Shown: in pieces, positions 3,375 to 9,895 of the stretch | Position numbering within the stretch: position 1 is the first letter of the stretch | Layout of the letters: every line of letters begins with the position of its first letter | From: Hyphomicrobium sp. 99 | GTDB taxonomy: Bacteria; Pseudomonadota; Alphaproteobacteria; Rhizobiales; Hyphomicrobiaceae | NCBI RefSeq assembly: GCF_000384335.2 | Contig: NZ_KQ031382.1 | Coordinates: 2,987,545-3,051,544 of the forward strand | Length of the DNA: 64,000 bases | Reading direction: 5' to 3' | Notes under the pieces: generated by a model | Told to the model about the DNA's origin: nothing | Database searches by the model: none | The model's input: the letters and a program-made list of their open reading frames with translations, nothing else | Position numbers and translations under genes: made by a program

Positions 3375-6341
3375 ATGAAATCACCTGCGAAAAAGCCCGC
3401 CCCCCGCGCCGGGTCCGAATTGATGAAGACCATCCACGTGCGTGGCGCGCGTGAACACAACTTGAAAAACGTCGATCTCGAAATCCCGCGCGACGCGCTT
3501 GTCGTGTTCACGGGCCTTTCGGGCTCGGGCAAATCCTCCCTCGCCTTCGACACAATCTACGCCGAGGGACAACGCCGTTATGTCGAAAGCCTCTCGGCTT
3601 ACGCCCGCCAATTCCTCGAGATGATGCAGAAGCCGGACGTCGATCACATCGACGGCCTGTCGCCCGCGATCTCCATCGAGCAGAAGACGACCTCAAAAAA
3701 TCCCCGCTCGACCGTCGGCACGGTGACGGAGATCTACGACTACCTCCGCCTGCTGTTCGCCCGCGTCGGCGTTCCCTATTCCCCCGCGACCGGTCTCCCC
3801 ATCGAGAGCCAGACCGTCGCGCAGATGGTCGATCGCGTGCTCGAGCTGCCAGAAGGCACGCGCCTTCTCATCCTCGCGCCAGTCGTGCGCGGCCGCAAAG
3901 GCGAATACAAAAAGGAAATCGCCGAGTGGCAGAAGAAGGGCTACCAGCGCCTCAAGATCAACGGCACCGTCTACGACATCGGCGACGCCCCGAAGCTCGA
4001 CAAGAAGTACAAGCACGATATCGACGTCGTCGTCGACCGCATCGTCGTGAAGAAAGACTTAGGCGTTCGCCTCGCGGACTCCTTCGAGCAGTCGCTGAAA
4101 TTATCGGACGGCCTCGCGATTGCGGAATACGTCGACAAGCCTTTGTCGAAAGCAGAGACCGAGGGCGCGAACAAATCGAAGAACGATACGCACGAGCGCA
4201 TTCTCTTTTCTTCCCGCTTCGCCTGCCCCGTTTCCGGCTTCACGATCGACGAAATCGAGCCACGGCTCTTCTCGTTCAACGCGCCCGCGGGCGCCTGCCC
4301 CGTATGCGACGGCCTCGGCTCCGAGCTTCGCTTCGAGCCGGACCTCGTCGTGCCCGATGGATCGCTCTCCCTCGAAAAGGGCGCGATCTATCCATGGGCG
4401 AAAACCGGCGTCTCGTCTCCCTATTACGAGCAGACGCTCGAAAGCCTTGCCAAGCACTACAAGATTTCGATGAAGACGCCGTGGGAGCGCCTGCCGAAGC
4501 ACGTGCAGCTCGCGATCCTCTTCGGCTCCGGCGACGAAGACATCGTCTTCACCTACTGGGACGGCAGCCGCAACTACTCAACCGAGAAGCCGTTCGAAGG
4601 CGTCATTGGCAACATCGCCCGCCGCTTCAAGGAAACGGATAGCGACTGGGTCCGCGAAGAGCTCTCGCGCTATCAGGCGGCGCACCCGTGCGAAGGCTGC
4701 GGCGGCTATCGACTGAAACCGCAGGCACTCGCCGTGAAAGTCGGCGGCAAGCATATCGGCGAGGTCTGCGATCTCTCGATCAAGAACGCCAACGACTGGT
4801 TCGCGGAAATCCCCAAGACCTTCACGAAGCAGCAGTCCGAAATCGCGACGCGCATCCTGAAGGAAATCCGCGACCGCCTGAAATTCCTGAACGACGTCGG
4901 CCTGACCTACCTCACGATGTCGCGCGCGTCCGGCACGCTGTCGGGCGGCGAAAGCCAGCGCATTCGTCTCGCCTCGCAAATCGGCTCCGGCCTGACAGGC
5001 GTCCTCTACGTCCTCGACGAGCCGTCGATCGGCCTGCATCAACGCGACAACGACCGCCTGCTCGACACGCTGAAGCACCTGCGCGACATCGGCAACACCG
5101 TCATCGTCGTCGAGCACGACGAGGACGCGATCATGCACGCCGATTACGTCGTCGACGTCGGCCCCGGCGCCGGCATCCACGGCGGCCGCGTCGTCGCTCA
5201 AGGCACCCCGCAAGACATCATGGACAACCCGGCGAGCCTCACCGGCGAATACCTCTCGGGCGTCCGCTACGTGCCGATCCCGAAAACGCGCCGCGCCCCC
5301 GACAAATCGAAATCGCTCACCGTCGTCGGCGCGCGCGAGAACAACCTGAAGAACGTCTCGGCCTCGATCCCCGTCGGCCTCTTCACCTGCATCACCGGCG
5401 TCTCGGGCGGCGGAAAATCGACGCTCCTGATCGACACGCTCTTCAAGGCCGTCGCGAGGAAGCTCAACAACGCCAAGGAGCACCCCGGCGAGCACGACAA
5501 GATCACCGGCATCGAGCACTTCGACAAGATCATCGACATCGACCAGTCGCCGATCGGACGCACGCCGCGCTCGAACCCCGCGACCTACACCGGCGCCTTC
5601 ACGCCGATCCGCGAATGGTTCGCAGGCCTCCCCGAAGCGAAAACGCGCGGCTACGAGCCGGGCCGCTTCTCGTTCAACGTGAAAGGCGGACGCTGCGAAG
5701 TCTGCCAGGGCGACGGCGTCATCAAGATCGAGATGCACTTCCTGCCCGACGTCTACGTCACGTGCGAGGAATGCAAGGGCAAGCGCTACAATCGCGAGAC
5801 GCTCGCCGTCACCTTCAAGGAGAAGTCCATCGCCGACGTGCTCGACATGACCGTCGAGGAAGGCGCCGAGTTCTTCAAGGCCGTGCCGTCGATACGCGAC
5901 AAGCTCGAAACGCTCGCGCGCGTGGGCCTCGGTTACATCCACATCGGCCAACAGGCGACGACGCTATCGGGCGGCGAAGCGCAGCGCATCAAGCTGTCGA
6001 AGGAACTCTCGCGCAGAGCAACGGGACGCACGCTGTACATTCTCGACGAGCCGACGACGGGCCTTCACTTCCACGACGTCGCCAAGCTTCTCGAGGTGCT
6101 GCACGAACTGGCGGACGCGGGCAACACCGTCGTCGTGATCGAGCACAACCTCGAAGTCATCAAGACCGCCGACTGGGTCATCGACCTCGGCCCCGAAGGC
6201 GGCGACGGCGGCGGCACCATCGTCGCGGCCGGAACGCCCGAAGACGTCGCCAAGGTCAAGGAAAGCTATACGGGACAGTACCTGAAGCCGGTGCTGGCGC
6301 GGAAGCCGAAGCCCGCAAACAAGAAGCAGGCGGCGGAGTAG
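3375..6341 (+). CDS. uvrA: Excinuclease ABC subunit UvrA
   Basis: The damage-recognition ATPase of nucleotide excision repair; it dimerises, loads UvrB on lesions and acts in the cytoplasm. About 988 residues from the ATG at 3375; an in-frame ATG at 3423 ([13 protein letters not shown]) is the conserved family start and could be the real one. Two ABC modules: Walker [10 protein letters not shown] (residues 47-55) and GVSGGGKST (about 675), with LSGGE signatures near 522 and 864 and Walker B LDEPS and LDEPT. The second zinc module CEVC...CEEC (about 774) is intact. In the first zinc module one ligand is replaced (CPVS instead of CPxC, about 283), a variant I associate with alphaproteobacteria. 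Its 3' end is repeated twice downstream. Confidence 0.98.
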
Positions 6342-6343
6342 AT

Positions 6344-6829
6344 ATGGCCGACAGCAAGGCAAAGCCGCCTCTCGCAATCGCAGCCGATGCCGCTCCTCTC
6401 CGCACCAAGCCGTCGAACTATCCCGAGCCCTTCTTCAGCCGCATGGGAAAGCGCGAGAAGCGGCCGCTCGGCGACATCTTCGGCCTCAAGAACTTCGGCG
6501 TGAACCTGACGACGCTTCTCCCGGGCGGCGAGTCCGCGCTTCTGCATCGCCACAGCAAGCAGGACGAGTTCGTCTATATTCTCGAAGGCAGACCGACGCT
6601 CGTCACCGACCAGGGTGAGATCGAACTCGCGCCGGGCATATGCGCGGGCTTCCCCGCGGCAGGCATCGCCCATCATCTCGTCAACCGGACCGAGAGCGAC
6701 GTCGTCTATCTCGAGATCGGTGACCGCACACCTGGCGACGAGGGCAGCTATCCCAACGACGACCTCAAGGCCTCGCTCGGCCCCGACGGCAAGTGGATCT
6801 TCACGCGGAAGGATGGGCGGCCCTATTGA
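6344..6829 (+). CDS. Cupin domain protein
   Basis: A 161-residue protein with a single cupin barrel. The metal-binding motif 1 is visible as GESALLHRHSKQDEFVYILEG, matching G-X5-HXH-X4-E-X6-G, and motif 2 follows (PAAGIAHHLVN). The metal and substrate are unknown; family members include sugar isomerases and dioxygenase-like proteins. The ATG lies two bases after the uvrA stop, so it is probably read from the same transcript. It is followed at once by a second copy of the uvrA 3' end, so it appears to be a gene inserted at the uvrA terminus. Confidence 0.9.
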   Translation: MADSKAKPPLAIAADAAPLRTKPSNYPEPFFSRMGKREKRPLGDIFGLKNFGVNLTTLLPGGESALLHRHSKQDEFVYILEGRPTLVTDQGEIELAPGICAGFPAAGIAHHLVNRTESDVVYLEIGDRTPGDEGSYPNDDLKASLGPDGKWIFTRKDGRPY

Positions 6830-6830
6830 A

Positions 6831-6962
6831 GGCGGCACCATCGTCGCCGCAGGCACGCCCGAAGACGTCGCCAAGACCAAGGAAAGCTACACGGGACAGT
6901 ATCTCAAGCCGGTACTGGCGAGGAAGCCGAAGCCCACCACAAGGAAAGCAGCCGCGGACTAA
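6831..6962 (+). pseudogene. Second copy of the uvrA 3' end (fragment)
   Basis: The 44 codons up to the TAA at 6960-6962 match the last 44 codons of uvrA with 37 identical residues by eye ([15 protein letters not shown], then [18 protein letters not shown]). Many DNA differences are synonymous, so the piece looks like the tail of a once-functional, diverged uvrA allele and not a fresh tandem duplication. It begins right after the cupin stop codon and lies in a chimeric frame open from 6615. No start signal of its own. Confidence 0.88.
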
Positions 6963-7019
6963 ATTTCCCTCCCCCTTGCGGGGAGGGTGGCGCGCAGCGC
7001 CGGGGGGGGGTCTCGCCTA
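6963..7019. repeat. G/C-rich hairpin repeat with a nine-G run
   Basis: CCCTCCCC and GGGGAGGG form a stem around CTTGC, followed by a GGCGC/GCGCC pair and a run of nine G at 7002-7010. Elements of this look are common between genes in high-GC proteobacteria. It separates the second uvrA tail from the SnoaL-like remnant and may mark a recombination joint. Confidence 0.6.
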
Positions 7020-7148
7020 GGCCTCAAGCCCAACGGCAAGAAGATCTCATTCTCCGAGCACGTATTCTACAAACTGCGCGACGGCCGGATCAGCGAAGTC
7101 CGCTCCCTCATCGACCGCGACGCGGTGGCTAGGCAGTTAGCGGAGTAG
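7020..7148 (+). pseudogene. C-terminal remnant of a SnoaL-like (ester cyclase type) protein
   Basis: Forty-two codons starting at the GGC at 7020 and ending in TAG read GLKPNGKKISFSEHVFYK, then LRDGRISEVRSLIDRDAVAR. This is the pattern of the last beta strands of SnoaL-like polyketide or ester cyclase proteins (FSGHVFYRLRDGKI-type ending). The N-terminal two thirds are missing and the preceding sequence is a repeat, so the gene is broken. It is followed 35 bases later by a third uvrA-like terminus. Confidence 0.65.
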
Positions 7149-7183
7149 CTTCACGGAGCGGAGTCAGAATCCGCAAGAAAAGT

Positions 7184-7204
7184 AAGAAGCAGGCGGCAGA
7201 GTAG
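7184..7204 (+). repeat. Third copy of the uvrA terminus (21-bp att-like repeat)
   Basis: These 21 bases, which read KKQAAE and stop, match the final 21 bases of uvrA (6321-6341) with a single difference. Together with the tail at 6831-6962 this gives three uvrA ends in a row, each after a different gene. The TIR cassette starts beyond this point. Confidence 0.75.
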
Positions 7205-7446
7205 AAAAGTCGACACTTATCCACAGTTCCCGTAAATTTTTTTGGGCGAAAGCTCGAAACGGAATTCATCAGTACACATTCATATCGCCGCTCTCTTCGC
7301 TTGAGCGACGATATGAAGATTCGTTTTTTTGTCAATTGGGGTGCTTATTTGGGCCTGTAATCATTGAATTATTTTGTGGGCGTTGCCGCGCTTTTTGCTG
7401 TCTGAGCGATTTTGCCATTATCTAATCGTCCTGCAAACTCGCTTTC
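7205..7446. promoter_or_regulatory. AT-rich leader of the TIR cassette with an inverted repeat
   Basis: CATATCG (7281-7287) pairs with CGATATG (7309-7315), with an inner GCTC/GAGC pair, giving a stem-loop about 130 bases ahead of the first cassette gene. The segment is much richer in A and T than the core genome, with T-runs at 7239-7245 and near 7325. A perfect DnaA-box nonamer (TTATCCACA, 7217-7225) is present once. The promoter cannot be fixed by eye. Confidence 0.4.
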
Positions 7447-7845
7447 ATGAAACGAGAACGCGTCAACCAAGCTCTCAAAATCGAGATGCAAATTGCCTCC
7501 ACAAGAAGGCGACTCGCAGTGGCGATGACCACAGCAGCGAACTTGGAAAATCGTCTTCGACTACTCGAGGAACAGCAATTTAGGTTGAATGAAGAAAGTC
7601 AATTGCCACTCGGGCGATCGACGAGAAAAAACCAAAAAAAGTACACCGTCTGGTACAGCGTCCGCGAGGCTCTCAGGGACACTCTATCAGATGGCCTCAC
7701 CACAGCCGAACTGCACCAAGCAGTTTGTGAAGAGCACCGAAACCTAAACATTATCACCTTTAGAGCCTATCTGCGCGAATTTCACTGCGTGAGACACTTA
7801 CTCGATAAGAAACATGATCGCTGGCATCTGGCAAAGCACGCTTGA
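7447..7845 (+). CDS. Coiled-coil / winged-helix-like protein of the TIR cassette
   Basis: A 132-residue basic protein of no family I recognise. Residues about 5-50 (VNQALKIEMQIASTRRR, then MTTAANLENRLRLLEEQQ) have heptad-like spacing of a coiled coil. A basic linker RSTRKNQKK (about 59-67) follows. The C-terminal part (YSVREALRDTLSDG, TTAELHQAV, ITFRAYLREF, then DRWHLAKHA) reads like a three-helix winged helix with a final wing, so DNA or RNA binding is possible. It lies 46 bases before the TIR gene on the same strand, probably in the same operon. Base composition is below the window average, which suggests transfer. Roles as regulator or partner of the TIR protein are inference. Confidence 0.7.
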   Translation: MKRERVNQALKIEMQIASTRRRLAVAMTTAANLENRLRLLEEQQFRLNEESQLPLGRSTRKNQKKYTVWYSVREALRDTLSDGLTTAELHQAVCEEHRNLNIITFRAYLREFHCVRHLLDKKHDRWHLAKHA

Positions 7846-7891
7846 ATGCCAAGACCCATCATTAGATCTTCAACTCGACAAACGGGGTAAT

Positions 7892-8848
7892 ATGTCTAAG
7901 GGACAAAAGATTTTCATATCATATTCCCACTTTGATGAGCATGCCTTGGAGCGATTCAACAAGCATCTCGCGATGCTAAAACGCGACGGCCTGATTTTAG
8001 AGTGGTTTGACCAGAAGATTCTGGCCGGGGGTGATATCGATTCAGAAATTTCCAAACATCTGGACGAATGCGAACTCTTCATTCCGCTGGTTAGCCCCGA
8101 CTTCCTCGCATCTACTTACTGCTACGAAAATGAGATGACGCGAGCATTGGAGCGACATGATCGTGGCACTATGCGCGTTGTTCCGGTCATCATCCAGGCC
8201 TGTGAGTGGAAAGCATCTCCACTTAAAAAACTTAAAGCCTTACCAAGGGACGGCAAACCCATCGCCGATTGGAGGAACGAAAACAACGCTTGGCTGGATG
8301 TCGTCACCCAACTTCGCGACGTCGTTCATGAGCTGACAACAGCTCCGCGCAACGAACCTCGAAGTTCGCCTTCGCAAAAGGCAGAGCGAGCATCAAAATA
8401 CAGAGTAAAACGTGATTTTGACGAAGTAGACAAACTGGAATTCCGACGGCGAGCGTTTTCAACGTTGCTCAAGTATTTTGCTGATGCCACCAAAGAAGTC
8501 GCCGAAGTCGAGAACATAAAGTCCCACTTCGCTTTAATTGGAGACGACGGCTTCACATGCACTGTCGTCAATCGTGCACGAAACCATGGCGTAGCTCACA
8601 TCACAGTTTATTCAAATGGGCGACGCTTATCGTTTGGGGACATTGTCTATTCTTTCGCAGAGAGAGCAGATCGCAACTCCGCGCACGGCTGGTTTGAAAT
8701 AGCGGCCGATGAGTACGAGTTATTTTTGGAGCGGAACGGCATGAACGGCATGCTGCGCGGAAGCGATACGGCGAGGCTCACTCCAGAACAGGCGGCTGCT
8801 GAATTATGGGATGAATTATTGGAAAAAACGGGAATTACTTATGCCTAG
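7892..8848 (+). CDS. TIR domain protein with C-terminal putative sensor domain
   Basis: A 318-residue protein. The ATG at 7892 directly precedes the TIR fold (KIFISYSHFDEHALERF). The domain spans about residues 5-140, with the BB-loop region at ILAGGDI (43-49) and the motif LVSPDFLASTYCYENEM (66-82). E81, with E79 as alternative, sits where the catalytic Glu of NAD-cleaving TIR domains lies. Residues 170-318 form a separate domain (FTCTVVNRARNHG, ITVYSNGRRLSFGDIVYS, WFEIAADEYELFLERNGMNG) resembling the C-terminal part of other uncharacterised bacterial TIR proteins as I remember them. NAD hydrolysis is known for many bacterial TIRs but unproved here. The gene overlaps the next by 8 bases. Confidence 0.9.
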   Translation: MSKGQKIFISYSHFDEHALERFNKHLAMLKRDGLILEWFDQKILAGGDIDSEISKHLDECELFIPLVSPDFLASTYCYENEMTRALERHDRGTMRVVPVIIQACEWKASPLKKLKALPRDGKPIADWRNENNAWLDVVTQLRDVVHELTTAPRNEPRSSPSQKAERASKYRVKRDFDEVDKLEFRRRAFSTLLKYFADATKEVAEVENIKSHFALIGDDGFTCTVVNRARNHGVAHITVYSNGRRLSFGDIVYSFAERADRNSAHGWFEIAADEYELFLERNGMNGMLRGSDTARLTPEQAAAELWDELLEKTGITYA

Positions 8849-9005
8849 CACAATCCGCTTTCGTTGCAATAATTGTGGCCGTCGGTTTGAAACTGAGACC
8901 CTGACGGATGAAGAAAAAAGAAGGGCCGCTCGAGAGCAGCGACCGACTTATGCCGTGAGCTGTCCGGAATGTCGCCGGACCGATATCCGCCGCGGATGGG
9001 AATAA
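8841..9005 (+). CDS. Small zinc-ribbon protein of the TIR cassette
   Basis: A 54-residue protein with two CxxC knuckles, CNNC near residues 9-12 and CPEC near 41-44, separated by a charged helix (TDEEKRRAAREQ). This is a typical zinc ribbon of the kind that binds nucleic acid or protein. The ATG at 8841 overlaps the last 8 bases of the TIR gene, so translation is probably coupled; an upstream ATG at 8811 lies deep within the TIR frame and is less likely. It could be a cofactor or antidote of the TIR protein; nothing in the sequence settles that. Confidence 0.72.
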   Translation: MPSTIRFRCNNCGRRFETETLTDEEKRRAAREQRPTYAVSCPECRRTDIRRGWE

Positions 9006-9024
9006 AAAATCTTATCCCCGCCCT

Positions 9025-9180
9025 CCGCACACGCAGCATAATCCCCTCACCCATCCGGCAAGGGCATCGCGCGAGGCGTCGCGCGGCGCTCGGGTGGGGC
9101 AGCCTCACCCGCTCGCGTCACGCGCGCGATGCGGACAAGGCGGAAGGCAGGTCCGCACGGGGTGAGAAACCCGTGTGCGG
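9025..9180. repeat. Branched inverted-repeat element (structured RNA or mobile DNA candidate)
   Basis: An outer stem CCGCACACG (9025-9033) / CGTGTGCGG (9172-9180) encloses two inner stems. The first is GCATCGCGCG (9064-9073) / CGCGCGATGC (9123-9132), a long imperfect hairpin closed at its tip by CGGGTG/CACCCG. The second is TGCGGAC (9130-9136) / GTCCGCA (9151-9157), which shares three bases with the first and so competes with it. The nested perfect arms are unlikely by chance, but I recognise no known RNA family. Confidence 0.55.
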
Positions 9181-9309
9181 AACATCCCGCTTCATTAAGT
9201 GACCTGCCGGAACCCTGTTCTCAGGCTGTCACGGAGCGGACCGGTTCCGAGACTAAAATTGCGAAGACCCTACGCCGCGGAACCCGTCCGCTTCGTGCTT
9301 TTTTGATTG

Positions 9310-9348
9310 GCGCAACCGACTCGCGTTCCGCGAGCCGGCCGGTTGCGC
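9310..9348 (-). repeat. GCCG-bulged hairpin repeat, copy 2 (reverse)
   Basis: GCGCAACCG (9310-9318) pairs with CGGTTGCGC (9340-9348), and ACTCGCG (9319-9325) with CGCGAGC (9329-9335), leaving CGGC (9336-9339) unpaired. On the minus strand this is the same GCCG-bulge architecture as copy 1, with a different outer stem and the A-rich flank on the same relative side. Confidence 0.8.
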
Positions 9349-9488
9349 ACACCTGTTGCGTCATCCTTCGGTCCCCTCCGGGGAGCCAGCCGCCGTGCGC
9401 GTTTGTCGCTTCGCCGGTACGCCGCGCACCTGTTGCCTCATTCTCCGCAATTATGCACGAAAGAACCAACATCCGGGCGCGCCACGCC

Positions 9489-9531
9489 TCCGGGCTTCCG
9501 GCCGGCTCCCTGCAGAAGAGTCGCCGGGCGC
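9489..9531 (+). repeat. Decayed GCCG-bulged hairpin, just before yjdM
   Basis: The core TTCCG-GCCG-GCTCCC and the right part AGAGT-CGCCGGGCGC are recognisable, but the left outer arm no longer pairs fully. The A-rich flank AATCAAATAAA follows and runs into the ribosome site of the next gene. Confidence 0.5.
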
Positions 9532-9550
9532 AATCAAATAAAGGAACCTC

Positions 9551-9895
9551 ATGAGCACGCTGCCACCCTGCCCAAAATGCTCCTCCGAATTCACCTACGA
9601 GGACCGCAACCTCTGCGTCTGCCCGGAGTGCGCGCACGAGTGGGATCCCCAATCGACCTCCGCGCGCGATGACGAGGACGCGAAGGTCTACCGCGACTCG
9701 GCGGGCAACACATTGCAAGACGGCGATACGATCATCGTCATCAAGGATCTGAAGCTGAAGGGCTCAAGCAAGGTCGTGAAAATGGGCACCAAGGTGAAGA
9801 ACATCCGCCTTGTCGACAGCGATCACGACATCGACTGCAAGATCGAGGGCATCGGCCCCATGAGTCTCAAGTCCGAATTCGTCAAGAAGGCGTAG
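9551..9895 (+). CDS. yjdM: YjdM/PhnA family zinc-ribbon protein
   Basis: A 114-residue protein of the PhnA (YjdM) family, once linked to alkylphosphonate use by its position in E. coli but with no proven enzymatic role. The N-terminal zinc ribbon is complete (CPKC at residues 7-10, CPEC near 25-28), followed by the family linker and a small beta barrel with [16 protein letters not shown] and [31 protein letters not shown] precedes the ATG, a good ribosome site. No phn genes are nearby. It is flanked on both sides by hairpin repeats. Confidence 0.95.

Follow-up and report, generated by a model that had tools for sequence, protein, structure and literature searches.

What does a small, low-GC gene cassette in the genome of Hyphomicrobium sp. 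99 encode, which of its genes belong together, and how might they act? The cassette lies in a stretch of 64,000 nucleotides (contig NZ_KQ031382.1, forward-strand positions 2,987,545 to 3,051,544), which we call the window and whose numbering is used below unless another locus is named; loci and genomes used for comparison carry handles beginning with L and G, respectively. An earlier reading of this DNA from its letters alone, referred to here as the sequence-only reading, had described a three-gene system with a likely role in defence, made up of a protein with coiled-coil and winged-helix features, a TIR protein with a second domain and a zinc ribbon. We find instead that the conserved unit consists of two genes. 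That the TIR gene and the ribbon gene form a real conserved unit is, in our judgement, nearly certain, and this widespread pair goes beyond what the earlier reading had recognized. The genes and domains concerned are the following.

7447-7845, plus strand: open reading frame (ORF) of 132 amino acids (aa), not found next to other copies of the TIR gene; a coiled coil and a winged helix are possible (weak)
7892-8848, plus strand: TIR protein gene, 318 aa, ATG start; residues 6-310 match the PADLOC model ThsB1/ThsB (PDLC00420)
7892-8341, plus strand: TIR domain, residues 1-150, with the codon of the candidate catalytic Glu81 at 8132-8134
8399-8845, plus strand: C-terminal domain, residues 170-318 (a long helix, six strands and a helix), of no Pfam family; candidate sensor or gate
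8841-9005, plus strand: zinc ribbon gene, 54 aa, ATG start, CxxC...CxxC; conserved partner of the TIR gene

The three ORFs, their common strand, the 46-base gap between the 132-aa ORF and the TIR gene and the 8-base overlap between the TIR gene and the ribbon are all as originally described.

The zinc ribbon as a partner of the TIR gene

Of 81 relatives examined by a profile search, 52 have a ribbon adjoining the TIR gene. The 81 comprise one viral contig and the best 80 of 521 genome relatives ranked by similarity to the window's TIR protein; since relatives were picked by similarity and several loci are near copies, this count is not a population frequency. The profile was started from eight ribbon sequences, of which three or more came from genomes that recur among the 81 relatives, and it gave 55 hits in the 52 loci, including three extra pieces in L033, L037 and L039. 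Hits of at least 49 residues with at least four cysteines were present in 46 of the 52 loci. Most hits begin within the end of the TIR gene, with an overlap of 8 bases in 42, 11 bases in four and 14 bases in one, while a single hit lies upstream of the TIR gene and seven lack an initial Met. In L093 and L095 a gene of ~160 aa stands between the TIR gene and the ribbon. On a quick tree of 63 rows, window included, the ribbon is present on 35, and the ribbon label needs eight changes, six of which are forced by starred branches.

The association also held when the ribbon was the starting point. Genomes were searched with the ribbon profile at E 1e-6, at most 17 or 22 candidates being scored per genome, and misses are possible. 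Among 297 genomes of the order the ribbon was found in seven and TIR matches in 18; all seven ribbon-bearing genomes have an adjacent TIR gene, which the ribbon follows in five and precedes in two (hypergeometric probability 8e-10, a value that is too small, the genomes being related). Two of 385 genomes of the class, our own included, have the ribbon, both next to a TIR gene. Nine of 72,556 plasmid records have it, always next to a TIR gene, of which pNGR234a keeps only a remnant, and in seven of the nine the PLSDB gene table, which is incomplete, gives only the overlapping TIR gene at the ribbon site. In pNGR234a (L118, 2694-3159) an intact-looking ribbon follows only the C-terminal remnant of the TIR gene.

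The 54-residue ORF, called a zinc ribbon in the sequence-only reading, has the two CxxC knuckles that define zinc ribbons in general, and metal binding is predicted. Across 34 ribbon rows C12, C41 and C44 are invariant and C9 is present in at least 90%. The ribbon is under purifying selection: the ratio of nonsynonymous to synonymous substitution rates (dN/dS) was 0.04-0.28 in 12 of 12 chosen pairs, some of which differ by only 2-4 changes and three of which have a dS above 1.4. With two CxxC knuckles in about 50 residues the protein resembles FmdB (Zn_ribbon_8), but it scores below the curated cut-offs for that family (23 bits against 34.4 in Pfam and 31.3 in NCBIfam), and in the samples searched it occurs only next to TIR genes or a remnant. 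We found no description of the TIR-ribbon pair in the literature, judged from titles and the openings of abstracts.

Could the ribbon be the antitoxin of a TIR toxin? Under such a scheme the ribbon would be a bound inhibitor, and its loss through phage shut-off or proteolysis would set the toxin free. The tiny size of the ribbon, its overlapping start, a gene order that is fixed in most ribbon loci and its constant company of a TIR gene or remnant in the three samples are all consistent with this. TIR genes without a recognizable ribbon are common, however (29 of 81), and in Bradyrhizobium L061 an open TIR frame is followed by a short ribbon scrap, although an essential antitoxin should not be the first of the two to go; pNGR234a offers the converse case, a ribbon next to a TIR remnant. 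From the ribbon-less loci and the scrap in L061 we infer that the ribbon is not an indispensable antitoxin, and we regard the toxin-antitoxin scheme as improbable. In G250 (L010) and pCMU01 (L119) the ribbon stands in front of TIR proteins whose similarity to the window's is confined to the TIR domain, which suggests that it works with the TIR domain and not with the C-terminal domain. Judging by its sequence and its company, the ribbon would be an accessory subunit.

The TIR protein

The N-terminal domain passes the Pfam cut-off for TIR_2 (57.7 bits against 28), and its predicted structure has the TIR fold. Either E81 or E79 had been proposed as the catalytic glutamate. In the family alignment the invariant residue is Glu81 (63 of 63 rows), not E79, and by its place there Glu81 is the candidate equivalent of the known catalytic glutamate. 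The separate C-terminal domain seen from the sequence was modelled confidently, with an alpha/beta fold. It belongs to no Pfam family, and a sequence search of the PDB gave nothing convincing (a single match, E 0.58); with frataxin and E2 folds as candidates, it has no clear solved relative. We consider it a candidate sensor or gate. The closest named relative of the protein among the best 80 of 521 is encoded by a Hyphomicrobium metagenome-assembled genome (L029, 59% identity). Phage records contained no match to the TIR protein, and viral contigs contained two relatives, L109 and the partial L110, the latter left out of our counts.

How does this protein compare with TIR proteins whose mode of action is better known? 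SpbK of B. subtilis, a single-protein TIR NADase, is alike in having two domains, a TIR domain and a candidate trigger-binding domain, and in needing no separate effector. Unlike the window's protein, SpbK is not known to have a zinc ribbon partner. The order of domains also differs. SpbK has an N-terminal four-helix bundle and then the TIR domain (PMC12847820), whereas in the window's protein the TIR domain comes first, an alpha/beta domain second, and a bundle of the SpbK type was not found.

The upstream open reading frame

Does the 132-aa ORF belong to the system? In a three-gene system its product would be an essential sensor or regulator, and the shared strand, the tight spacing and a third-position GC equal to that of the TIR gene speak in its favour. 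The 132-residue ORF itself is real, but its product was found only in its own genome among 297 genomes of the order and 103 of the family; plasmid, phage and viral contig records yielded no copy of it. Nothing convincing was found upstream of 81 other TIR genes, where the best match of the 132-aa protein to 105 ORFs ending no more than 250 bases upstream had an E of 0.057; its best match in all fetched loci had an E of 0.55. The coiled-coil and winged-helix label stays weak, with only sub-threshold Pfam matches (YkuI_C, E 0.026; WHD_ORC2, E 0.1) and no match in a sequence search of the PDB. A 30-residue match upstream of the L117 TIR gene was rejected: its E was 0.004 against two small loci and 0.89 against all loci, and its frame differs from that of the DUF2188-like ORF there. 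Small genes upstream of TIR genes elsewhere vary by clade. We therefore give a three-gene system hardly any credence; on sequence comparison the 132-aa ORF lies outside the conserved core, perhaps as a lineage-specific regulator or a passenger.

DUF2188 genes stand just upstream of the TIR gene, or overlap its start, in several ribbon-bearing loci. One was scored at L004 1251-1487 (67.7 bits; the same genome as L030), and related ORFs were recognized by similarity or by eye at L031, L032, L036, L051 and L117.

Relation to Thoeris

The sequence-only reading knew of no named system with this combination of genes. Part of that statement has to be withdrawn: the TIR protein matches the PADLOC ThsB model PDLC00420 over nearly its full length (229.5 bits, residues 6-310, including the C-terminal region), and it shares with ThsB (TIR_2) the TIR fold and the invariant glutamate. 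The 63 aligned family rows, without exception, match the ThsB model too. Is the cassette, then, a Thoeris system? Its genome has one ThsB-type match and no ThsA match for PDLC00407 or PF20016 (the SIR2-SLOG and macro classes, the two searched; caspase-type and other ThsA classes were not). To this extent the statement stood. Across 81 family genomes, our own included, a full-length SIR2-SLOG ThsA is present in one (G833, 514 bits), with part of that model matched in 22 others, and a macro ThsA in four; five genomes thus have either searched class and 76 have neither. Each macro ThsA gene adjoins a gene that is taken, from its position, for thsB and encodes a different, short protein (183-187 aa), and the TIR protein had no match in the four short macro ThsA loci. 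The window's protein differs further from Thoeris ThsB in its conserved ribbon partner. By sequence, the cassette has the ThsB-type protein and lacks a ThsA of the two searched classes, and as such is not Thoeris as defined.

The TIR protein might still be an orphan ThsB acting in trans, making an ADP-ribose signal that activates a ThsA encoded elsewhere. The uniform match of the family to the ThsB model is what such a protein would show, and some members of ThsB subfamilies are known to carry extra domains (PMC11204291). Additionally, in Reyranella (L075), one of the 81 genomes, a macro ThsA and a 184-aa presumed ThsB apparently lie ~4-5 kb from the family TIR gene, judging by the equal lengths of the contigs. 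Of the five genomes with a ThsA, however, only that of Reyranella has it on a contig as long as that of the TIR gene, and the scarcity of both classes, their absence from the window's own genome (other classes not being covered) and the short neighbours of the macro ThsA genes make a trans-acting ThsB, to our minds, an unlikely explanation.

The uvrA/PhnA slot and neighbouring genes

Three further features mark the borders of the cassette.

6831-6964, plus strand: duplicate of the uvrA 3' end, left-flank debris, 84% identical to 6210-6343
7184-7205, plus strand: third scrap of the uvrA 3' end, 95% identical over 22 nucleotides to 6321-6342
9005-9090, no strand: segment from the ribbon stop codon, where homology to congeneric regions resumes; it recurs in some of those regions

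The foreign composition proposed for the cassette was borne out. GC is 0.489, 0.491 and 0.545 in the 132-aa ORF, the TIR gene and the ribbon, against 0.594 for the window, and third-position GC is 0.49-0.52 in the cassette ORFs compared with 0.82-0.86 in uvrA, the cupin gene and the PhnA-type gene (names assigned by Pfam). The gene debris reported at the left consists of the second copy and third scrap of the uvrA 3' end, and the hairpin repeats at the right correspond to an inverted repeat with 44-nucleotide arms (9299-9342 and 9498-9541, 70% complementary). The uvrA 3' end is thus present three times, in full at 6210-6343, as the 84% copy after the cupin gene and as the 22-nucleotide scrap, a pattern that repeated integration at the site could leave.

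What occupies this position in other members of the genus? The PhnA-type gene is present in seven congeners, or eight of 22 genomes with our own, and six regions were compared, G768 (a short contig) being left out. In four of these six, homology starts again at window 9004/9005, the ribbon stop codon, and in G763 it does so at 9037; in G766, the sixth region, no uvrA was found next to the PhnA-type gene. The interval from uvrA (in G760, a uvrA scrap) to the PhnA-type gene, which corresponds to window 6341-9551 and to congeneric loci L129-L132 and L139, carries different cargo among the five remaining congeners: a cyclase of the cyclic-oligonucleotide-based antiphage signalling system (CBASS) with a 2TM effector in G771, a CAP12-type TIR protein scored PDC-S35 in G769, PDC-M28A, B and C in G760, a 710-aa protein with a sub-threshold HATPase match in G774 and a 390-aa protein in G763. 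That three congeners have CBASS genes or PADLOC candidates there agrees with the defence role that had been thought likely for the cassette, and the proteins of G774 and G763 are candidates for new defence genes. As TIR-type proteins, the TIR effectors of CBASS and Pycsar (CAP12/PCTIR) resemble the window's protein, and one of CAP12 type occupies this slot in G769, but the cassette has no cyclase and its protein matches TIR_2, not the CAP12 family.

In other genomes the family's neighbours include prokaryotic Argonaute (pAgo), DndC, MADS and type I restriction-modification genes. A PADLOC scan that covered 110 of 257 listed neighbours, from 40 of the 52 ribbon loci, with 25 of 59 families listed at E 1e-10, revealed no constant third gene among the ribbon loci, and a fixed third gene was rejected, the downstream genes being different (150 aa, 173 aa, ~160 aa and a pAgo-associated nuclease). 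This bears on the possibility that the TIR protein synthesizes a signal for an effector whose gene lies elsewhere, and that the ribbon regulates expression or nucleic-acid sensing. Such a division of labour would fit the lack of a constant third gene, a possible effector, and the likeness of the ribbon to nucleic-acid-binding zinc fingers, which at profile level is weak and covers few residues. An effector is as a rule needed near by, however, and the neighbours scanned included no co-occurring candidate; we think this explanation very unlikely.

Several neighbourhoods deserve mention in their own right. Type I restriction-modification genes directly adjoin family TIR genes in three loci (a methylase in L009 and L089, a specificity subunit in L107), and the second neighbour in L009 is, by eye, a specificity subunit. 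A second TIR subfamily is followed by a conserved ~160-aa gene in L027, L028, L103, L007, L093 and L095 (related in six of six by BLAST), of which two had no match in PADLOC and one had none in Pfam. In L074 (8023-8802) a second TIR gene of 260 aa, matching PDLC00420 with 115 bits over its TIR part, lies ~0.9 kb after the TIR-ribbon pair. On the Microvirga terrae plasmid pR24_2 (L023, 4709-6945) a helix-turn-helix gene, a reverse transcriptase of the retron type VI class (PADLOC, 301.5 bits) and a family TIR gene stand in a row, possibly a retron with a TIR effector; despite this, a retron was rejected for the window, where no reverse transcriptase was seen by eye among the ORFs near the cassette.

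A possible mode of action

How might the pair act? The reading we favour, with a confidence slightly better than even, is that of an abortive-infection module gained by horizontal transfer. At its core would be a TIR NADase, equipped with a sensor domain, and a zinc ribbon subunit. Its NADase activity, its triggering, abortive infection or cell arrest and the role of the ribbon are what we infer from the comparisons above. The TIR protein and the ribbon subunit would be co-translated, and in the uninfected cell the TIR domains would be held apart or out of register, the C-terminal alpha/beta domain being the likely gate. A phage component would then bind the C-terminal domain, the ribbon or both, the TIR domains would associate, and a composite active site with Glu81 would form. 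Cleavage of nicotinamide adenine dinucleotide (NAD+) would leave an infected cell that no longer supports the phage. The ribbon, partnering the TIR domain, would serve as an accessory subunit for trigger recognition or assembly. Our model for the triggering is SpbK, for which PMC12847820 describes trigger-driven clustering.

Several observations weigh against this reading. TIR proteins that make a signal and those that deplete NAD+ look alike by sequence, PADLOC labels the protein ThsB, and Reyranella apparently has a macro ThsA and presumed ThsB close to its family TIR gene. The 29 loci without a recognizable ribbon, which include all 13 Bacteroidota rows of the tree, indicate that the TIR family as such does not need it, and ribbon genes that look damaged in L039 and L061 indicate that the pair is not always kept. 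The full-length model of the TIR protein has a predicted template modelling score (pTM) of only 0.54, so the arrangement of its domains is not predicted. Finally, two of the five congeneric slot cargos (G774 and G763) have no PADLOC match.

Implications

A bolder proposal, which we put forward tentatively and at rather less than even confidence, is that TIR and ribbon form a distinct, unnamed two-gene immune system, spread horizontally mainly in Alphaproteobacteria, in which the ribbon is a dedicated trigger-recognition or licensing subunit of the TIR enzyme that can be swapped between TIR proteins with different second domains. If this is true, the ribbon would play in bacteria the part of a separate adaptor for a TIR effector. 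Of the 81 genomes with the family that the PADLOC ThsB model labels, 76 lack both searched ThsA classes, and consequently orphan ThsB calls in surveys may belong to a system of their own. More defence genes may be sought in the uvrA/PhnA slot of this genus. A very small companion gene, linked to one TIR family and yet dispensable in some of its branches, offers a handle on how bacterial TIR proteins are silenced and triggered.
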